Shown: piece after piece, positions 3,401-51,128 of the stretch | Layout of the letters: each line of letters starts with the position of its first letter | Numbering within the stretch: the first letter of the stretch is position 1 | DNA from: Tetraselmis striata | Taxonomy: Eukaryota > Chlorophyta > Chlorodendrophyceae > Chlorodendrales > Chlorodendraceae | Direction of reading: 5' to 3' | Length of the DNA stretch: 64,000 nt | Assembly: GCA_006384855.1 (NCBI GenBank) | Contig: VCJN01003588.1 | Coordinates: 124,001-188,000, forward strand | Made by a program: the position numbers and the translations under genes | Notes under the pieces: model-generated | What the model was told of the DNA's origin: nothing | Databases searched by the model: none | The model's input: only the letters and a program-made list of their open reading frames with translations

Positions 3401-4577
3401 TGTGCCAGGTGATGCAGCAGCAGCAGCAGCATATTATATGCTGGCAAGAAATACGGCGGACTGGTGGGGCCGCGGTCTAGCAGAGCGGTTGAGCGGAAAC
3501 CCTGCGAAGAGGGCGGGTGCTGGGGGCGGCGGGGAGGCAGCGGGGTTGCCAACCACGCACGCAGTGCCGGAGATTGGGCCTAGATAAGCGGGCGAGAGGG
3601 GCGAGATCTGCTCGGCTGAAGCCCCCCCCCCCCCCCCCCCCCCCCCTCTTCCCACGGCTTCCACATAGCGACGCGATACTCACCGCGACAAAAAGCTGCT
3701 GGATGTCCTTGCAGCCCGCGTGTCGTTATCCGGTGCAGGGCCCTCGGGGGACGGCGCCTTGCTGGTTGGCGCGCGGTTGCTGTGTGTTAAATGCTGATGG
3801 TCGCAGCGATGCCGATCCCGCTGTGGCCTGCAGCCGCCGCCCCCTGCAGTCCCGCCGCATCCGCCAGGCCCGATCAACAGGAACAGTAGTAGCAGCCAGC
3901 AGCACTGACGCAGAACTTGGAGATACCGCCCGACTCTACCCCGTAGTGTCACCAAACAGACCATACCAGAACTATTAATTAACATGTAGAATGCACACGA
4001 AAAATTAGTATGTACTTGTGCTGTGAACACTCTCACTCAGTATCATATCACATACTAAATTTACATATACCTATACTAGCTGAATAATATAGTATTATAG
4101 TACAGTACAGGTATCCAGGTGGGGTATTATAGGTGGGGTATTATTTATAGTACAGTACAGGTATACAGGTGGGGATAACCTGTGGGGATAATCCTTACCT
4201 AAAGCAGCAAGTCGCTAGCTCCGCTGATCATCATTCGGCACTGCTGGCGGGACTTGATCTGGTCCTCGCAACCACTTGAGTCTTCTGGCGAAACAAGCCC
4301 CCAACGGAAGGCCCCACCAGCAGCCTTGCTCATCCCCTCCATGTGTAGTGACATCTCTTTCGCCAACTGCTACAGCAGACCTGGGCGCCCCACACTGCCG
4401 CGGCGGTCACATCTCGGTGGCGACGCGAACCGGCGCGCCGCCCGCCTCGGATAGTTACTACTGTGCCGCACGGTGTCCCCTTTTTATCCCCGCAAGCGGC
4501 GGCAGATGGCTCTGGCGGGCTGAGGATCGCCGCCACTTGGCAAGAGTACAGCCGGGGCAGCGCTGGGGGTCGCGAAC
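3265..4577. other. Divergent intergenic region between BRR2 and the UBZ4-AlkB gene
   Basis: No convincing coding exon is seen. The stretch probably carries both promoters. It holds a G run of about 29 bases at 3371-3399 and a C run at about 3622-3646. A good splice donor (GTGAGTATC on the minus strand) lies at 3684, paired with a possible acceptor about 20 bases before the BRR2 ATG, as for a 5'UTR intron. An AT-richer part at 4040-4200 contains two copies of a short tagtacagtacaggtat-type repeat next to ggtggggtatta and ggtggggataa motifs. Confidence 0.5.
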
Positions 4578-6967
4578 ATGTCGAAGCAGCAGGGCTTGCT
4601 CAGCTTCGCGGATTGGGGTGCGGAGAAGCAGGTGCACCTGGCAGCAGGTGGGGGCGGGAGGCAGCACCCCCCGCAGCACTCCAGGCTAGTGACCTGCCCG
4701 GTGTGTGCGCGCCTGGTGCCGCTGTCTACAATGAGTCTGCACCTGGACTCGCGGGAGTGCGCTGCCCGGGTGTCGGCGGCTGCCCCGATAGCGCTATCTG
4801 CAAATGGCAGCGGTGGCAGCAGTCATCGTCTGGCCCAGCCTGCGCCTGAGGTGACAGCAGCAGCCCAGCATGATCTCTTCACATCCTCACACAGAGGTGC
4901 TAAGGGCAGTCAGGCAGAGGCAGGCAAGGGAGATGGCGAGCAGGAGCCGGCATCGACCTCGGGACTGGTAGCCTGTCCAATCTGCGGTGGCAATGTGCCG
5001 CTGTCCACCATGAGCTTGCATCTGGACTCGCGGGAGTGCGTGGCCCGGGCGTCGGCGGCTGCACAGAGAACGCCAAACGCGCCTGGCAACACTAGTGATG
5101 ACAGCGTGGTGGTCAAGCCTGCACGCATGTCGACAGAAGCTTTCAAACGGGACCTAATCGGCTCCCCAGGCAGAGATGCCGAGATTAGCCAGGCAAGGGC
5201 CGATAGAGAAGACGGCAATCGGGACTGGGCATCGCCTACTGGGCTTGTGACGTGCCCCGTCTGCTGCCGTCACGTACCCGGTGTGCGCATCAACCAGCAC
5301 CTAGACTCTGCGGAGTGTACTGCGCCAGGGGCCAAACAGCGGTGCGGGGCCGCACTAGCAGCAATCAGCCAGAAGCAGGGTAGCAGTGGAAAGGAAGGCA
5401 GGGCGGGCAGTCCGCAAAGACTGGAGCAGGCAGTGGGGTCGCCTGGCCAGGAGCAGCCCGGAGCTGCTCAGCACGGGAATGACTGGGGTTTCCTGCTGGG
5501 GCGAAAGCCTGTAGCAGAGTACGGAGTCCACACAGTACCCCCCCCCCTTCCTTCTCCCCTTTCCAGCCCCCCTCACCCTCTGTTGGGGTGTCTGATCAGC
5601 ACTTCTGCATAGAAGCGGACTGGCCGACCCAACAGTTGCGGCGGCATACGGCAGCTGAGCATTGCTGATGCCCTGCAGGGGCTGCGGGGTGGTTGGCGCC
5701 CCACCTCCGCTGTGGTGGACATGGCCGGGTTAGACACCTTGGATGCAGGGGCAGAGGAAGAGGCAGAAGCAGCATCGGAAGCAGCAGCGTCAGGTAGACC
5801 TTGGCCCCCTCCATGGGCACCTCCAAGCTACCTGTCCACACTCTAATCAGGTTGATGAGACCCACCCTGATCGTAGGCGCGTCTCTGCAGCCACTCTACT
5901 ACGGCGCAGTGCTCTCTCCTTCCTTCAACCTGCCGGGCCACTTTGTCATAGAGAACTTTATCAGTGCAGAAGAGGAAGGTGAGCATAGCCAGGACCTCCC
6001 CCTTCCCTCTGGCCTCATGCAGCGCCAATGGTGACGCTGAGTTGCATGTTGCGTCTGGCAGACCGACTGCTGGCAGCGCTGGACCACGACACGCGCCTCC
6101 CATGGCGCCACACCCGCTTCAATGGGCACTCCCTAGTAAAGTACTACGGCGTCGAGTCAAATCTAGCGGCTCGTGCCAACAAGCTGGGGCGCGTGCCGAT
6201 GCCAGAGTGGCTATCATTTGTTATGGAGAGGATGCCACAGGTGCAGGCCAATATGTTTGGCAGTCCAAGGGCGTGGATGTGGGCTAGGCCTGAGGCCTGC
6301 TGCTTTGCCCGCAGGTCGGCCTGCCAGTGCTGCGCAAGTTCCAGCCAAATGAGTGCAATGCCATCGACTACCGGCGTGCGCTTGGGCACAGCCTTACACC
6401 GCATGTGGACGACAGGCAGCTTTCCGGGTACGGGCTCCTTGTCCCCACACATTCCCCATACCCCCCCTGGCAAAGGCCCCTCCTGCAGTCTCATGTGCTC
6501 TATCATCGAGGAAAGACTCGTGAGCCAATGACCGCGTGTTTGTGACCCTATGCCTCTGGCAGTGACATCATCTGCAACCTCAGCCTCTGCGGTGATTGCA
6601 TCATGACGTACTCTCGTGAGAAAGGCGCTGCTCACTGCGTGGACGTGCGCCTGCCGCGGCGCTCGCTGCAAGTCCAGGCCGGCGGCGTGGTGAGCGCCCT
6701 GATGCCTCTACCTGTTCAGCCCGCAATGCCCCTGCACAGATGACGAGCCATGCTGAATCATGTCGTTGCTGCCCTTGCATCCTCGTCTGTTCTTTCGTCT
6801 CGCAGCGATACGAGTATCAGCACTCCATCAGCAACGCCAACCTGCTGGCAGAGCGCCGGGTGTCTATCACCTTCCGCGAGTGCCCCCTCAGCAAAGCCAA
6901 GCCGCAGTTTGAGGGCGTCCAGTACACGCCCATGGCCAAGCGCTACAAGTGGGGCCGCAAGTTGTGA
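4578..6967 (+). CDS. UBZ4 x3 - AlkB-type 2-oxoglutarate/Fe(II) dioxygenase (ALKBH4-like)
   Basis: Seven exons fit with phase: 4578-about 5525, 5613-5793, 5877-5978, 6062-6240, 6315-6427, 6563-6689 and 6806-6967, about 600 aa. Exon 1 holds three C2HC UBZ4-type fingers, the first CPVC..HLDSREC (C40, C43, H55, C61), the second near residues 135-160 and the third near 225-250; such fingers bind ubiquitin in RAD18 and SNM1A. The C-terminal part is an AlkB fold: substrate-lid region (LPWRHTRFNGHSLVKYYGV), Fe ligands in TPHVDD (HxD), strand LPRRSL, distal His in RYEYQHSI and the 2OG-binding RxxxxxR in RRVSITFRE. Order and spacing are closest to ALKBH4. The N-terminus QQGLLSFADW resembles a weak PIP box. 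The exon 1 donor is uncertain (5525 or 5534). The substrate (DNA, RNA or protein) cannot be told; the ubiquitin modules suggest recruitment to damaged chromatin, which is inference. The gene converges with the methyltransferase gene. Confidence 0.88.
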
Positions 6968-7050
6968 CGGCTCCGGCAGACCCCATACCTCCGCCCTATC
7001 CCTTGCTTCACCGCCATGGAGAGGTAAATGCATCTTTCAGCTCAAGATGG

Positions 7051-7055
7051 TGTAA
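7051..7055 (+). terminator. TGTAA poly(A) signal of the UBZ4-AlkB gene
   Basis: A TGTAA pentamer lies 84 bases after the stop codon of the AlkB gene. TGTAA is the usual poly(A) signal of green algae. It falls within the 142-bp gap to the convergent methyltransferase gene, so the two 3' ends must be very close or overlap. Confidence 0.5.
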
Positions 7056-7109
7056 TTTTATTTCTCAGTCACCCTTAAATACGTGGAGTTTGGCAGCTAC
7101 ACATGGGGA

Positions 7110-8542
7110 CTACTCTTCTGGAGGCGCGCCGTCCATGCCAGCCAGCCAGTAGATGACACGTGACCTGCCCACAAAGTTCAGGCGGCCCTCTCGCAGCCCC
7201 GGGTGCTTGGCGCGCAGATAGCTCAGGAAGTCCTCGTACGAGCGCACAGGGCGGCCGGCTGGTGTGAGCCGGTCCGGGAACATGTCCGCAAACACGCAGC
7301 AGGGGACCACCGCAAAGGGCTTGCACAGCTGCAGCGCGGCGTCCACGATGGCCTCCGTCACCTCGTCGGGGTGCATGCCCACCATCACGCTGCAGTCCTG
7401 GCACAGTGCCAGCAGGTCGGCGTCTCTGCGCCCCGCCTCATGCGCCAGGTCGCTGCCCGCCGCGTGCGCGAGGTCCTCCCAGCGCTTCACAAACGGCGCG
7501 GCGGAGGTTGGCACGGAGAGCGGCTTGCGGGTGGGCACGCCGCCGCTATCGGCCCCGCTCAGCCGCACCTCTGCCGGCGCTGTGCGCTCCTCCACCAGCG
7601 TGCAGGGGGCGTGGTGTCTCTCCTGTGCATGGGCAGTGGCACTCAGGTTAGATTCATGTCGATAGCCCCAGGACAGAACTGGCAGCAGTGAAGCCCGTGT
7701 AGCTTGTTTACACCGGGTTCTAGGTAGCAATCACGTTCCACGCGGCTCTGTGTACGCTGCAGCTCCGATATAGTCATCAAGTAAAATACTGACCCAATCC
7801 CAATCCACAAGAGTAGTTGGAGGTCCATAAAGGAATAACGTCCGGTAAGTTTGGTTTTCGCCGTCCAATGCACCACCATCTAAGATAATGGACTGGCGAA
7901 TTGTCTGCCCTACCCAGAGATTAGAAGCGTGGAAGAGATCACAGACTGTGATGTGGGTGCGTTTGAGGGGTCAAGGCAAAGCGCTACAAAGTGTACATGG
8001 CGCAGAATATCAATGTGAATGTGAACATGGCGCGTTTGGACCATGCCGGCTATGTTGAGGGGGCGGACTCCCACGGGACACAAAGCACACACCTGCAGTT
8101 CTGCGCCTATCAGCCCTTTGCCACCGGCGATGTCCAGCACGCCGCTGCCCTCCCGCAGCTGGTCGACCCCGAACGTCTGCACCAGCCACTCCACGAACAC
8201 GCGATGCCGATTCCTCGGCGCCTCCTTCTTGTTCTTTTTCTTGATGTGGCGTCCGCGCCGCTTCCTCCGTGCCGCGTCCGGCGGTCCCTCGAACACCGCG
8301 TCACCGACCCCCAGCGCGCCGCGCCACCCGCCGCGCGACCGCCACTCGCCGGAGCCCAGGTCCACCCGCAGCCCGTGCTTCTCCATCAGCTCCGCGACAA
8401 TGCCGGTTGCATCCTCGCCCTCCTGCAGCAAGGCTTCGACGTCCAGCAACTGGTCCAGCAGGTAGGATGAGAACTTCTGCGCCCCCGGCGGCGGCAACGG
8501 CCCGGCCGCCCCCTCGCCGCTATCGCTCCGTCGCTCGCCCAT
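7110..8542 (-). CDS. Class I SAM-dependent methyltransferase (Methyltransf_32/METTL25-like)
   Basis: Two exons, 8542-8093 and 7622-7110, join in phase 0 for 320 aa. Exon 1 has a basic patch (RRKRRGRHIKKKNKK, NLS-like), then RHRVFVEWLVQTFG and the SAM-binding motif I VLDIAGGKGLIGAEL. Exon 2 starts with the post-I strand CTLVEE and carries a motif IV-like block, VGMHPDEVTEAIVDAA...PFAVVPCCVF, where the PCC signature recalls Methyltransf_32 / METTL25 / GSTCD-type enzymes. The C-terminus is RSRVIYWLAGMDG. An in-frame ATG lies 26 codons upstream (8620); the ATG at 8542 was chosen because it starts a more typical MGERRSDS sequence. The substrate is unknown; RNA is likely for relatives. The 470-bp intron could hide a small exon. 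The gene is tail-to-tail with the AlkB gene. Confidence 0.75.
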
Positions 8543-9692
8543 GGTACTCTTCACCGTCGCGGTGTCGGCGGAGCGAAGCCACACCCCGCCCTGACCGCCC
8601 AATACCCTCGGCATCGTCACTGGCCAGCACGCGAGAGTATAATAATGCTGTATGCCCAGACTTCAGTTTTCTAACCCGATTAGAGCTACCGTTGTTGCGT
8701 TTAGGGTTTTAGAGCTACCGTAGGCTCGCGGTTAGGGGCGAGTCCATGTGTCGTTTCGTCTGTGGCTGGGTCGATGGCCTTATGGCTGCTGCTGCTGCTG
8801 CTGCTGCTGCTGGATAGAACGCATGGACGACAGCATGGACGCATGCTGGGCGATGACGGCGACGGCGGCTCGTCGTGTAGGGTAGGCGCTGGGGCTTCCC
8901 CGTTAATCGAGGGTACGTCCAGTCCTGATGTAGGGTATAGCGGCAATAAGGTTCTGCCGCTGTCTCATTTGTTTGTTTCGCCCCGGGAAAGGAGTAAAGG
9001 ACTGGCAATATATCCGATGTGCCAGGGCTGCTACCCGTACTGTGCTGCATTTTTTTTACATGAGTTCTTTAACATATGCGCAGTAAACTTCTAATCCTTA
9101 TCTGTCATAGCTGTAGATAGAGCAGTAGTTATTCCAGGCTAGGGACAATTAGACGAATTGATGTCTTACGACCGCAAATAAATTTCAAGGCCTGCCACTG
9201 TTGTCGGGCAAATGTTCTAATATAGCGACTAGTCGCTATAGCCAGCTCACCACAGCAGCAACTCGATTTTAATGGCATCACGCGCGCATCAAACCCCGAG
9301 GAAAAACGAGCGCATCAAACCCCGAGGAAAGCAAACCCTGAGGAAAAACTGTGCGCTACATACGATGGATGAGGACTTCACTTTTTCTGGGGGTAGTATG
9401 GGACTACCACAGAATAGTCCTCTCTAACTTAAAAGAGCAGTTTAAAAACCCTACAACATCCACAGATAACCTAACAGTGCGCAATATGCTGTACAGTACT
9501 GATGAACATTGCTGCCCTGCCTAGAGCGCGCCGACTAGGCGCCGCCGCCATCCGTCCGACATCACGCCTTTTGCCCGTCGACCCCAGTCACACGCCCCCC
9601 CCCACCCTGCATAGCTCTATTGCCGCACGCTCCACGTCGCGCAGTGCCCTGCTTGTGGCAAGTTCCCAAAGGTTTTTGGCAGACTATTCGCT
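8543..9692. other. Intergenic region with CTG repeat and short tandem repeat
   Basis: Divergent spacer between the methyltransferase and GAR1 genes. It contains a (CTG)n run of about nine units at 8785-8813 and a degenerate tandem repeat of about 24 bases with the core gcatcaaaccccgaggaaa at 9285-9350. No coding exon is supported. The part from 9040 to 9500 is AT-richer and may hold the GAR1 promoter. Confidence 0.5.
8785..8813. repeat. (CTG)n microsatellite
   Basis: About nine CTG units in a row in the upstream region of the methyltransferase gene, on the strand opposite to it. The open frames through it (poly-Leu or poly-Ala) are repeat artefacts. Confidence 0.85.
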
Positions 9693-43959: not shown

Positions 43960-45700
43960 CATGATCTTATCGATCACGGCGTTTGAAGTTAGCAGGGGTC
44001 CGTTGTGTGCTGTGAGGCATCATAGTAATGTTTTTGATATTCTTTAGCCAGTTTAATATTTGCATGGGCCAGGTTATTGATAGGTTGAAATCTTTGATAA
44101 GGTCTAGACGGGGCTGTTTAATGTGAGTAAACGGGTGGACCATGTCCAATGGGTGCGGGGGTGAAACCCGTGCACCGCTTGAAACGGAGGTGTTTTGTTG
44201 AGGACGACTCCAAGCTGTTGTAATAATGCTCGTCTGCGCCATCGGTTAATTATGGAGCTATTTGGACTGGTGTTATAACAAAAGGCTCGCAACAGCTGCT
44301 CTACGATTCTAGTAATTATTTCCATTTTGCCATCAGTCTGTGGGTGATAAGCCGTACTGAGAATAAGGGTAGTAGCCAACTCAGCAAAAGCTCTTGAAAC
44401 TATTCAGACGTGTACTTGGTATCTGTGTCACTCACCATACACACTAACGCTACGAAGATTTGTAAATACTGGTCATGTAAAGATGAGCAAGCTGCTTGGC
44501 AGCTGTCGATTTAGTAAACAATACAAAATGGGCTTTGGGAATTAGAGGTCCACAAACGTGGCAATGCTGTCATAACCATCGACCACACATAAATTGGTAC
44601 TAAAATCAAGACTGAAATCAAGGCCTACAGGGAGAAGGCAAGGGTGCAAGGCTGCAGCAGGAGCTTGGTTAGGCTGCTTCGTGAGTTTGCAGACCTTGCA
44701 ATCCTTGATATAGGAATTAATAGTCTTTTGCAAATGTGGCCAAACAAGTTTCTCTTGACAAGCGCCTCCCACTGTGCGCTCAACACCACTATGACACCAC
44801 TATGGCCAGCTGTAGTGGTGTTATGGCATTTAGCCATGTTCCTCTTCTTCAGACTGGTATGATTGTGCGCATACATTTTATCATCTAACATATGTAAGTT
44901 GGAAACTTGGTCAAGAGAGACAGCAGGTGGGTAGCACGGAGTAATAAACTTTGGATTGCGCACGTAGGCCCGTTGTAATTGTTGGACAAGGGCATTGTCC
45001 ATTTGAAAAGAGACAGTGGTAAGGGCGATCCAATCCGTGAGATGGTCAAGATCTTCCTCAAAGGATTGATGATAGAACGCGTCCAATGACTGTTTCAAGC
45101 CGGGACGACGACTGAGTGCATCAGCCATGTTCTGCTCTCCCTTTTAGTACAGGATAGTCATATTCCGCGTGAAAGCAGAGATGACTTGCATCCAACCAAC
45201 ATGTCTCCGACCCACAACTTCCTGAGTGGGCAGAAGCCTTAGTGTAGTACGATCAGTAATGACATAAGAATGGGCACAGCCTTCCAGAAAACGACGCCAG
45301 TGCTGTAGGGCAATGACAACTCCCAAAATTCAGTATCAGAAGTAGAGTAATTGAGTGAGGATTTTTGAGCGCCTTCGATAAATAGGCAATAGGGCGCAAG
45401 TAATTAGTCTTTAAGTCTGTCTTTCGCAGGACAACCCATACAGGACAACCCATACCGCATCAGTGGCTACGGTAAACTCAGCTTGAGGGGCCGTAACAGG
45501 GGCCAGAATCACCGGAGCATGTGTAAACTTGTATTTGATAGTCTGAAAGACTTAGTGTACAGATGTCCATGCTTTGATAGTATTTCATTCAGTCAGGTCA
45601 AATAGGGCTTAACAATCCTGGCAAAATATGGTACAAACTTGCGGTAAAAGCCAGCAAAACCCCCAAAATAAACATGTCCGTCCGCCATCTACGAAATCAA
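43960..45700 (-). mobile_element. Ty3/gypsy retrotransposon fossil (RT-RNase H-integrase)
   Basis: On the minus strand, in order: the end of reverse transcriptase (AGFYRKFVPYFARIVKPY, near 45600-45660), RNase H (ALQHWRRFLEGCAHSYVITD), the linker MADALSRRP, the integrase zinc-binding region (CHNTTTAGHSG, DCKVCKLTK) and the integrase core with STAYHPQTDGKMEI. This gene order is Ty3/gypsy. gag and protease are not seen and no LTR pair was recognised. The copy is truncated and old, with several breaks. Confidence 0.8.
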
Positions 45701-46899: not shown

Positions 46900-49800
46900 T
46901 CAGGCATCAGGCAGGCACCCTGTCATCCGGACGTGCGAGAGCACCGCCTGCAGGCCAAACTTTCCGTACGCCTGTAGGCAGGCGCGGAAGCCGTCGCCGT
47001 AGACTGGTGAGGGGTCCGTCTCTATCTGGTGCACGCAGTAGCGCCCCAGCTCCGCCGTCCCGTGCCCCTGCCAAGCCCAGTAGCATGCAGTGCTGCCGCG
47101 TCAGCACTAGGGACTGACACTCCATATCCCAACATGCGTCAAGAGATGGAAACAAACACACACGGGAAAAATACGAGGAAGCCACATGGCACGAGTGGTA
47201 TATGTTAAAAGGATGCGAAGGGGGGACATGTAAGTAGGGACATCCGCATGCCTGCATGGCCATCATATGGGGCTGCTGCGCCCCCAGCCATAGGTGCGCC
47301 ATCAGCTGGCAGAGCCCCTCCTCCACCATCGGTAGCAGCTGCATGTCTGCGGGTAGCCTGCACGGGGCAAGGCTGCAGTTTATGGCTAGCCCAACGAAGA
47401 TCTGCAAGGGCAGAGCGGTGCTGGAATGGTGACATTGTCGCACCGCGGGGGGGGGGGGGGGGGGGGGGGGAGGGAAGGGGGGGCAGGGCACACGCTGCAC
47501 CCCCAACGTACCCCGACAGCTTGAGCCAGGCGTGCATCAGCTCGTGCGCGATGATGCTCCCGGTCAGCAGCCGCGGCATGCCAAACAGCACGAGGATAGC
47601 CGTGACGCGGGCCGTGGTGGACGGAATGTGCACCTCCTGCGGAGACAAAGCCGCGCCGTCAGCCGGCGGGCAACCCCGATATCTGCCACAGCAGCCTTAT
47701 GCGTGAACGGACAACGATCACACATGCGGCGGAGCAATGCCCCAGTCATGACTTAATGTAAATCAACGCGAGGATTCTCTCTCTCCGTCCAACATTATCA
47801 TGCTGTGCAGAGTATTGCCACTTCCCCTCCTCCCTCCCTCCTTCCCCTACCAGCCCTATGTTCAGAGCTCAGGGCTCACAGTGGTAGGTGGCTTGGAGGG
47901 GGAGACGCACCTCTGGCACCACCAGCCAACGCAAACCGCCAGGAGCCGCGCGCCGGACGGTAGTCACACGGTGGTGGATCTCACTGAGGCACAGGCCGCG
48001 GGTGTGAAAGACCGGCCCCTGGGCACAGGGCGGAGTAGCGGGCAGGGGAGGGGCAGGTGGGGATTAGACACCCCGATGCGGAGTTGAGGGGACAGGGCCA
48101 TGGGGGCACTGGGTAGCTCAATGAGCCAACCTGGCGGTGCGCGATGCCCTCTTTGTCCTCCGCGTCATTGAGCGCGCTCGACTCCACCAGCATGAGCGGC
48201 GGCCGCACCGGCAGCGGCATCGACAGCGACTCGAAGAAGTACAGCACGTCCTGGTACAACGGCTGGCAGTCTGCAGTGTCCACCACGATGCTGTCCACAC
48301 AGGTCAGGCACGAATGCCGGCCGTCCTGCAGCGCCACGTACTCCTCTCCTGCGTGCCGTGGCACATCACGCTCAGCCGCCCTCTGCGTGGGCAGGCGGTC
48401 CCCAGGCCAGCAAGTGTAGGTCAGCAGAGGCTCCCACCCCGCGCCTGCATGCGGTTGCACGAGTAGCAGCGCGGCGTGCCGTCGCTGAGGTGCTCCGGGC
48501 AGTACTTGGTTTTCCAGAAGGGGTTTTCTGAGAACCGGATGTGCTTGTCTGGCTGGGCGGGAATGTAGGACTGGCACACGCTGCACCAGGGGTGGAACCT
48601 GCAGTGAGGCCAATCAGCGGGCGCGCAGGTCATGGGGATGGGGATTTCGGGGGGGGGGGGGGGGGGGGGTGGATGCGGCGCCGCCCGTCATATTCTCATC
48701 AGATATTTCATCCACCGCAGCCTTAGTAATCACCATCCTGATGCTGTGTGGCAAGCTGCCCGTTACTGATGTGAGGCATCATGGTGCATGAGCTGATGCG
48801 CGCATGGCGGAATCTGTCCGGGTGGGTTAGGGATGCACTATGTGCCTACTAAACCCCCCCCTCCCCCCCCCCCCCCCTGCTACGCTGCCCGTGCACAAGC
48901 AGCTGCTGCTGACAGTGGAAGAGAGGCTTAACCATCCGAGGGCTTACCTATGGCCGAAGGCGCTGCAGCGTGCAGGTCAGCCATGTAAGCATCAATGACC
49001 AGAGGGAACCTTGCAGTGCATCTGTGGGGGAGTGTTTGATGAGGGGGGTGGGGAGGGGGGGGGGGGGGGGGAGGGGAGGGGGCAACGCACCTCTTTCTGT
49101 GGCATGCGGAATGGTACGCGGCGCCGTCTCGCACCGCAAACGCCGCGTCGCTGATGGGTCGGGTGCACCCGGCGCAGCAGAAGCAAGCAGGGTGCCAGCG
49201 CTTCCCCATCGCCTGGAGGTACCTGCCGCCTCCCGGTTGCAACAGTGCGCCGAGCCCGGCGGCCAGAGGACGGTTGCAGCCTGCGCATGTGCTCTGCGGC
49301 GACGCGCGGAAAGGTGTATCGGCTGGCGGGATTGCGCTGGGCGGCCTGCTCCCAATGCTGGGGGGAGATAGTCCCACGCCAGCTGCCTCCGCGTCCAGCT
49401 CCCGCTGCAGCCGCCGCGCTACCTCCTCGTCGCCGAGAATCTGAGATTGCTCAGCCCACAACGGAGGGGGTCCTTCCTCAGATTACACCTGGCTCCTGCA
49501 GTATGTCAATGTCGCACAAATAGGCGTGTTTGTAGAACAGCAGGAGGGGGGAGGGGGAGGCCTTGCCTGCTGGTGCCTGTCTGGCGTCGCGTGCTCCGCC
49601 GGCCCGCAGTCCTCCTCCGCTAGCGCGAGCGCAATGGCGCGATCCGTGGCCTCATCTGATGCGGAATCAATGTCGCCAAGGCAGAACGGGCTGTGGTAGC
49701 TGTCGCCCTCCTGTGAGGGTAGACACACAGTTCGCTGGGCTGTGACGGACCAGAGGCTTTATATTGGGGCAGGCGGAGTGTGTACATGGTGAGGCAAGAT

Positions 49801-50440
49801 AGGTGGTCACTAACTGGGTGACTGCAAGAGAGGGAGAGATAGAGAGACAGTATTTGCACGCATTCACGACTATTTACCATCATTAGCTTTTTGGCTGCAG
49901 CTTCAATATCTAAATAACTATAGCATGCACCTGTTTTATTCCGTCCCAACAGCGACCATATCAAGAAGACATATAGCAGATGTCGACGAGTCACACGAGT
50001 TCACTGCGAGAGCGGAGACTGGCTACGTGCCAACGACTGAATTGCGTGAATAATTAAACGAATGATTTGCCCGACTTGCCGTGGGGAAGGAGATCGGGTT
50101 CAGGGTACTGCACCTCAAGCATCTTGGCGCCCGGGCTTGGGCCCATGCCACTCGATACGGGCCCTACACCAGCCGCAGGCGTCATGCCTGGCCGCCCCCT
50201 CGGTGGATACGGTGTGGCGGGCGAAGCTGATGCGGCGGGCTCCGCTCTCGCGCCCTCCCGCAGGCTGGCCTGTATCGCGAATTCCATCGCGCTGGCCTCC
50301 ATCGCCGCCGCCAGCGAAGCGTCCTCGTCTTCCTGGGTGCCGGCTTGCGGTGGAAGCCCGCATGGAGTGTTGGTGGGTGTGCGCATCTCGCGGACGCCGC
50401 CCCGGTTGGGGCTCGCTGGCACGGCATGCTGCTGCCCCAT
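46900..50440 (-). CDS. DA1: DA1-type ubiquitin-activated peptidase (UIM-LIM-HEXXH)
   Basis: DA1 peptidases of plants cleave growth regulators and limit organ growth after being activated by ubiquitylation. Exons: 50440-50114, 49710-49567, 49440-49091, 48598-48438, 48348-48131, 48018-47911, 47636-47512, 47357-47252 and 47067-46900, about 568 aa (Arabidopsis DA1 has 532). UIM-like helices: [20 protein letters not shown] (about residues 37-56), [17 protein letters not shown], and [17 protein letters not shown] domain: CAGCNRPL...[16 protein letters not shown] second zinc module follows: [35 protein letters not shown]. The peptidase part has [28 protein letters not shown], the active site HELMH (about 467-471), [15 protein letters not shown] and [20 protein letters not shown], ending [12 protein letters not shown] at the start would permit N-myristoylation. 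Two borders (49567, 47252) seem to use GC donors; alternatives exist. Confidence 0.94.
47447..47472. repeat. Poly-G tract (poly-C in the DA1 transcript)
   Basis: About 24 G on the plus strand, so a C run in the DA1 intron about 40 bases after the donor at 47511. Similar DA1-intron tracts lie at 48650-48669, 48856-48877 and 49056-49071. Confidence 0.8.
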
Positions 50441-51128
50441 CCGGCCAGCAGCGACGCTCCGGCGGGGGGGGAATAAAGGGAGCGCCCAGCAGGCCGGTGC
50501 TTGGCGGCAGCTTGTCAGCTTCGACAGGGAGGCTGTAGCAGAATGAGGCAGGATGGTGAGACTACAGAACCCGGCGAGGGAATGGAACGGAGGCAGAGAC
50601 AACACGTCAGAATCCTTATATGGCGGTGCCTGTCGGCTTTTTTGCTGCTGCTGGTCGCACTTGTCGTGGCGGCTTCGCCCCAGCACAGCACGGGGCGCAC
50701 CTCAGCATCATAGCGACTAAATTCATATATGGTCGCCATATATGCTGCTGGCGACCAGCGACTACTACCCTGTACGGCTTTTTAGGGTTTAAGCCCTAAT
50801 AATGATAATGATCAGCGACTATCATGTTAATACCATTTTTAGTGGTCGCTACCGTCGCGTGGCTTGGCTCTGACGGTACCGCGTACAGGTATCGGTGGTA
50901 TGAGATAATTCTACGAACGTGCAAGGGCTTTACCCGCATATTATCCGTATTTGTACAGTCGCTACAGGGTTGTAAAAAATCCACCGCGCTAGTTTAAGGC
51001 AGTACTATCAGTGCCTCGGAGATATTTGTGGTGTTAGAAATGTCAACTGCACGGGATGAATCTCCTAGTCAGGAGGTCTCTGGATCGACTCCCGGCTCTG
51101 TCATTTCAGGGCAATATCATCCGGGCCC
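50441..51128. other. Upstream region of DA1
   Basis: The DA1 reading frame stays open for 82 more codons upstream, but the text there is low in homology and is probably 5'UTR. Text at 51055-51115 (ctcctagtcaggaggtctctggatcgactc) looks faintly tRNA-like but cannot fold into a proper cloverleaf. The rest is AT-richer promoter-like DNA. Confidence 0.4.

Follow-up and report, generated by a model that had tools for sequence, protein, structure and literature searches.

A probable green-algal gene that seems to join three ubiquitin-reader-like fingers to an AlkB-type demethylase

Can a single polypeptide both read ubiquitin and remove methyl groups? The question is raised by a 64-kb stretch of forward-strand DNA from Tetraselmis striata, the whole of which was analysed here (the window), where a probable green-algal gene, judged from its sequence, seems to join three ubiquitin-reader-like fingers to an AlkB-type demethylase. 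The parts of the literature covered by our searches held no description of UBZ-type fingers joined to AlkB; within that literature the domain order is new, and both kinds of component domain are known.

Exon layout and the proposed join between fingers and AlkB

The gene comprises seven exons with GT–AG borders on the + strand, joined in frame to encode 606 amino acids and closed by the stop codon TGA at 6967 (table 1). A first-pass annotation of this DNA had placed the gene at 4578–6967, and our reading of the window, together with in-frame joining of GT–AG exons, gives exactly these coordinates. The introns measure, in order, 78, 83, 83, 74, 135 and 116 nt. Starting exon 3 at the alternative position instead of 5877 would give a protein of 595 residues.

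Table 1. Features of the proposed gene, with positions counted from the first letter of the window.
Feature	Position	Strand	Description
Exon 1	4578..5534	+	319 aa; ATG 4578; begins PIP-like and carries the three fingers and a pair of homologous linkers
PIP-like QQGLLSFADW	4587..4616	+	residues 4–13; QxxLxxFA, degenerate
Finger 1	4695..4760	+	residues 40–61; CPVCARLVPLSTMSLHLDSREC
Finger 2	4974..5039	+	residues 133–154; CPICGGNVPLSTMSLHLDSREC
Finger 3	5253..5318	+	residues 226–247; CPVCCRHVPGVRINQHLDSAEC
Exon 1 donor	placed 5535	+	5511, 5519, 5526, 5582 and 5588 likewise frame-compatible
Proposed intron 1	5535..5612	+	78 nt, 74% pyrimidine; contains TAG 5610–5612, which closes the exon-1 frame
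Exon 2	5613..5793	+	linker from fingers to AlkB; contains ATG 5721, where a separate AlkB gene might begin
Exon 3	5877..5978	+	AlkB domain begins here; alternative start 5910
Exon 4	6062..6240	+	AlkB N-terminal part (alignment to NMAD-1)
Exon 5	6315..6427	+	AlkB HxD motif; His503 and Asp505 at 6402–6410
Exon 6	6563..6689	+	AlkB region between HxD and distal His
Exon 7	6806..6967	+	distal His559 (6821–6823), Arg571 (6857–6859), Arg577 (6875–6877), stop TGA
TGTAA	7051..7055	+	sole copy on the + strand within 4300–7300; this is the chlorophyte-type polyadenylation motif

Exons 1 and 2 are in the same frame, and the lone stop between them lies within a pyrimidine-rich stretch that is the size of an intron. 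The pyrimidine content of this stretch compares with 47–62% in the other five introns. Its removal would place the fingers and the AlkB domain in a single fused protein, which on the sequence we consider probable. Eighteen GT/AG pairs for the exon 1–exon 2 splice keep the frame open, and the precise junction is not fixed by the sequence. Direct splicing of exon 1 to exon 3 with exon 2 skipped is also possible, as 46 GT/AG pairs fit by length alone; 41 of them use donors past finger 3, so that three fingers would still precede AlkB.

A reading as two neighbouring genes would end a triple-finger protein of 344 aa (ATG 4578) at the TAG and start an AlkB gene near ATG 5721. If intron 1 is retained the exon-1 frame does indeed close there, ATG 5721 is in the frame of exon 2, and exon 2 itself has no clear coding preference by a codon score that is a weak guide. 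The stop and the ATG are, however, just 108 nt apart, the 18 splice pairs hold the frame open across the junction, and TGTAA is absent from the + strand between 4300 and 7050, its first copy beginning 84 nt past the AlkB stop, although at a + strand density of 0.78 per kb its absence over 2.4 kb is weak evidence. The readthrough from 5535 to 5609 also speaks against a continuous finger gene, being 76% pyrimidine and having the lowest in-frame codon score of the stretches tested (−0.45). We therefore regard two genes as unlikely.

The codon score, which derives from an AlkB codon usage table of only 227 codons, separates coding sequence poorly. Exon 1 scores −0.08 in its own frame against −0.27 and −0.30 in the others, whereas exon 2 scores −0.14 against −0.11 before ATG 5721 and −0.24 against −0.11 after it. 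Intron 4, at 0.13 in its first frame, outscores exon 1, which is why the score guides only weakly.

The window sequence is GC-rich; this, the short introns and the DA1-like and LIM matches given below are in keeping with a green alga. On its − strand, 923–1492 encodes an N-terminal helicase PWI domain (PF18149, 6e-31), as in the spliceosomal helicase Brr2, and 7110–8660 is a convergent neighbour gene in which a methyltransferase-like DIAGGKGLIG was seen by eye and of which the two ORFs scanned have no Pfam match at 0.01. A retrotransposon-like stretch (44628–45143, −; MADALSRRP) was likewise recognised by eye and has no Pfam match at 0.01. Pieces of a DA1-type gene occupy 47208–50701 (−), where Pfam finds a LIM domain (4e-11) and a DA1-like peptidase (9e-17) in two ORFs; UIM-like helices were noted by eye in the neighbouring ORF 50057–50701 (−), which has no Pfam match at 0.01. 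This region may encode a second ubiquitin-linked protein.

The triple-finger array and its class

Exon 1 encodes three fingers, as the first-pass annotation had it, with the ligands Cys-Cys-His-Cys arranged as C-x2-C-x11-H-x5-C in all three; the spacing from His to the last Cys is here corrected to x5. A looser pattern, C-x2-C-x11-H-x3-5-C, matches these three fingers only in the six frames of the 64-kb window. When the exon-1 protein was shuffled 20 000 times, a single pattern match arose in 21 shuffles and two or more in none, which rules out a chance motif.

Successive fingers lie exactly 93 residues apart, both times, and comparison of exon 1 with itself peaks at offset 93 (76/226 identities; the runner-up has 29/295). 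Linkers 1 and 2 are homologous (25 of 67 positions identical, with none of 10 000 shuffles equally good); the segment downstream of finger 3 resembles neither, with 6/67 identities to each. The two linkers share a DL-x2-S-x2-R...SQA pattern. Together, the 93-residue periodicity and the homologous linkers indicate that the array arose via tandem duplication of a finger–linker unit. Fingers 1 and 2 have diverged with pN 0.13 and pS 0.48, against pN 0.42 and pS 0.54 in their linkers; for the finger cores the values are 0.32 and 0.89 (2 and 3) and 0.28 and 0.77 (1 and 3), all of them rough, being drawn from 26 to 59 codons. This pattern indicates that selection has held the finger more than the linker since duplication. 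A pseudogene or non-coding repeat is unlikely, given pN below pS in the fingers and an intact domain for AlkB.

What kind of finger is this? Compared with solved structures, exon 1 alone finds RAD18 (0.021) and WRNIP1 (0.041). A profile of the three fingers gives 21 matches at E up to 10, headed by the UBZs of RAD18 (5.3e-7 and 1e-6) and WRNIP1 (2.7e-4), with FAN1 at 0.0084 and, lower down, a lysine-biosynthesis protein (0.016), GTSF1 (0.083) and weaker ones; SAKe6BR, presumably a designed protein to judge by its name, appears at 0.001 via six very weak stretches. The alignments to RAD18, WRNIP1 and FAN1 reach HLD or one residue further and stop short of the last Cys, which in the algal fingers lies two residues further along than it does in RAD18. 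The interval of x5 in 3/3 fingers compares with x3 in RAD18 and x4 in FAN1; these two differ from each other, which suggests that the class tolerates some variation in spacing, and x5 is absent among the members compared.

Pfam finger models all score below their cut-offs: CEP104_ZnF is best (2.1e-5, 25.1 of 27.4 bits) and PRP21_like_P second (1.5e-4, 22.1 of 28.2 bits), and the others include zf_UBZ (4.7e-4, 20.2 of 25.6 bits), Sgf11 (E 0.0011) and zf-WRNIP1_ubi (1.3e-3, 19.7 of 26.4 bits). Scanned singly at E up to 1, one finger of the three matches zf_UBZ and one of three zf-WRNIP1_ubi. WRNIP1 is reported to contact ubiquitin via Pro21-Val22 and Asp37 (PMC4370504). The distance of 16 residues places these contacts, in the WRNIP1 sequence, at the PV within CPVC and at the aspartate of HLD; at the same positions the three fingers have P-V, P-I and P-V, and Asp in every case. 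AlphaFold, run on three-row alignments for fingers 2 and 3, predicts a beta-beta-alpha fold with a mean pLDDT over residues 11–30 of about 90 for finger 2 and 82–86 for finger 3, and of 84 and 76, respectively, over residues 31–40, the region of the last Cys. Among the best 50 of 79 Foldseek matches to the finger 2 model at E up to 10, the RAD18 UBZ ranks first and second, Sgf11 third and the WRNIP1 UBZ fourth (0.6 Å over 21 columns); every one of these E values exceeds 0.3.

The profile, the contact residues and, weakly, the predicted fold support an assignment of the fingers to the UBZ4 type. We call them divergent rather than canonical UBZ4, owing to the x5 spacing and the Pfam scores below cut-off; the UBZ4 identity proposed at first pass thus stands in this qualified form.

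The AlkB catalytic domain

The C-terminal part matches Pfam PF13532 (2OG-FeII_Oxy_2) at E 2.4e-10, its 41.4 bits exceeding the cut-off of 31.2. The complete catalytic set that had been read from the sequence, namely HxD, the distal His and Rx5R, is present, and the alignment to solved structures agrees. The NCBIfam models, which serve prokaryotes, leave the AlkB domain unmatched.

Ten sequences of solved structure match the domain at E up to 10. Four are of NMAD-1 (1.5e-15 to 6e-15), followed by ALKBH8 (2.6e-10), two of ALKBH7 (~8e-4), an ankyrin protein (0.57) and the uncharacterised P8A3.02c (1.1 and 1.2). These ten include neither ALKBH2 nor ALKBH3, chains of which we take to belong to the library searched; an ALKBH2/3-type repair enzyme is accordingly unsupported. 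The local score is higher for NMAD-1 (182, against 144 for ALKBH8), whereas the fraction of identical columns is higher for ALKBH8 (50/168, against 49/185), so that the subfamily could be either ALKBH4 or ALKBH8. By sequence, then, the domain appears to belong to the ALKBH4/ALKBH8 neighbourhood, with NMAD-1 (of the ALKBH4 type) and ALKBH8 nearest.

The preferred substrate reported for NMAD-1A is N6-methyladenine (6mA) in DNA with bubbles or bulges; the human protein closest to it, according to the same authors, is ALKBH4, for which 6mA DNA and methylated actin are the possible substrates (PMC10815869). That source also counts Chlamydomonas as one of the organisms whose DNA contains 6mA. ALKBH4 is described as missing from plants (PMC3493508), so that both readings of the domain would be of interest: in one the green lineage would have an ALKBH4-like enzyme, and in the other an ALKBH8-like enzyme would stand without its partner domains. 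The passages covered of a microalgal survey (PMC11312118) mention neither ALKBH4 nor ALKBH8. Searches of viral contigs with the AlkB domain, exon 1 and the fingers returned 19, 4 and 10 pattern-matching stretches, and those of prokaryote genomes with the AlkB domain and the fingers 13 and 21, none of them confirmed; neither is a collection of eukaryotes, and both are unsuited to finding orthologues of an algal gene.

Possible roles and comparison with known systems

Our preferred reading, which we hold to be about evenly balanced between right and wrong, is of one protein of ~606 residues in which three divergent UBZ4-type fingers bind ubiquitin and an active AlkB dioxygenase is thereby recruited to it. 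Each finger alone would bind ubiquitin weakly, and the array of three would bind tightly to a polyubiquitin chain or to a cluster of ubiquitylated chromatin proteins. Docking of the array would put the 2-oxoglutarate/Fe(II) dioxygenase beside methylated nucleic acid, or methylated protein, from which the methyl group would be removed oxidatively. K63 chains are the reported ligands of the RAD18 and WRNIP1 UBZs, whereas the FAN1 UBZ appears to recognise mono-ubiquitylated targets (PMC4370504), so either kind of target is possible for the algal array. More specifically, and as a tentative suggestion that we ourselves doubt, the protein could be a green-algal single-chain reader and demethylase, in which the UBZ4-type array counts or clamps chromatin ubiquitin and delivers an NMAD-1/ALKBH8-like enzyme, possibly erasing N6-methyladenine from the alga's DNA where chromatin is ubiquitylated. 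One protein would then do the work for which animals use the ALKBH3–ASCC complex.

The fingers of a fused protein might instead dock on chromatin proteins or on nucleic acid and so target an NMAD-1-like enzyme independently of ubiquitin. The finger of Sgf11 docks on the nucleosome, and Sgf11 ranks third in Foldseek and has a sub-threshold Pfam match; CEP104_ZnF and PRP21_like_P outscore the UBZ models in Pfam, GTSF1 appears in the profile search, and in NMAD-1A a hypothetical zinc finger and the C-terminal domain are reported to contribute to nucleosome binding (PMC10815869). Nevertheless, it is the UBZs of the repair proteins RAD18 and WRNIP1 that top the profile list, and the contact Pro-Val/Ile and Asp are retained in 3/3 fingers, which makes docking of this kind decidedly unlikely.

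The first-pass annotation had suggested a link to stalled forks or damaged chromatin. In the form considered here, the UBZ array would read PCNA–ubiquitin and bring the enzyme to stalled forks, where it would repair alkylated DNA. UBZs, including those of FAN1 and RAD18, are reported to serve the Fanconi and other DNA-repair pathways, translesion synthesis among them (PMC4267625), and the extreme N-terminal QxxLxxFA resembles the PIP-box of MSH6, RQSTLYSFF. A canonical PIP-box, however, reads Q-x-x-aliphatic-x-x-aromatic-aromatic (PMC6881253), and QQGLLSFA departs from it in having Ala at the final aromatic position, so the PIP-like N-terminus once proposed is degenerate and a role with PCNA is only a possibility. 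The AlkB domain, moreover, is nearest to NMAD-1/ALKBH4 and ALKBH8, with ALKBH2 and ALKBH3 missing from its ten structure matches at E up to 10. Both observations weaken the case for fork repair, which we judge very unlikely.

Returning to the fused, ubiquitin-reading protein, a natural cis fusion, if true, would suggest that a link between ubiquitin and AlkB has arisen more than once. It would also offer a simple single-protein system for studying ubiquitin-guided AlkB action, and would suggest ubiquitylated chromatin as the place where an ALKBH4/8-like enzyme acts.

Each part of the proposed protein has known counterparts. Like the UBZs of RAD18, WRNIP1 and FAN1, the algal fingers have CPxC, a Pro in the beta-hairpin, an HLD helix, the Cys-Cys-His-Cys order and, by prediction for fingers 2 and 3, a beta-beta-alpha fold; unlike them, they occur as three tandem copies apparently fused to a dioxygenase, and have H-x5-C in place of the H-x3-C of RAD18 and the H-x4-C of FAN1. 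ALKBH8 is an RNA-modification enzyme with an RRM and a methyltransferase domain; the list of 12 Pfam families matched by the algal protein includes neither. The AlkB domain of human ALKBH8 has LPRRSL in common with the algal protein, and both proteins have Arg-x-Ser-x-Thr-Phe-Arg beyond the local alignment. The best solved relative of the catalytic domain is C. elegans NMAD-1A, a DNA N6-methyladenine demethylase, to which HxD, the distal His and Rx5R align, and which is described as having an N-terminal extension of its own with a hypothetical zinc finger (PMC10815869), as against the triple-finger array of the alga. A precedent for a ubiquitin-guided dioxygenase is the ALKBH3–ASCC complex, reported to be localised by K63 chains that ASCC2 binds through its CUE domain (PMC8800115). 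The logic proposed for the algal protein is the same, but in cis: reader and eraser are separate proteins in ALKBH3–ASCC, whereas in the alga, if they are fused, they would share one chain and use a different ubiquitin-binding fold.
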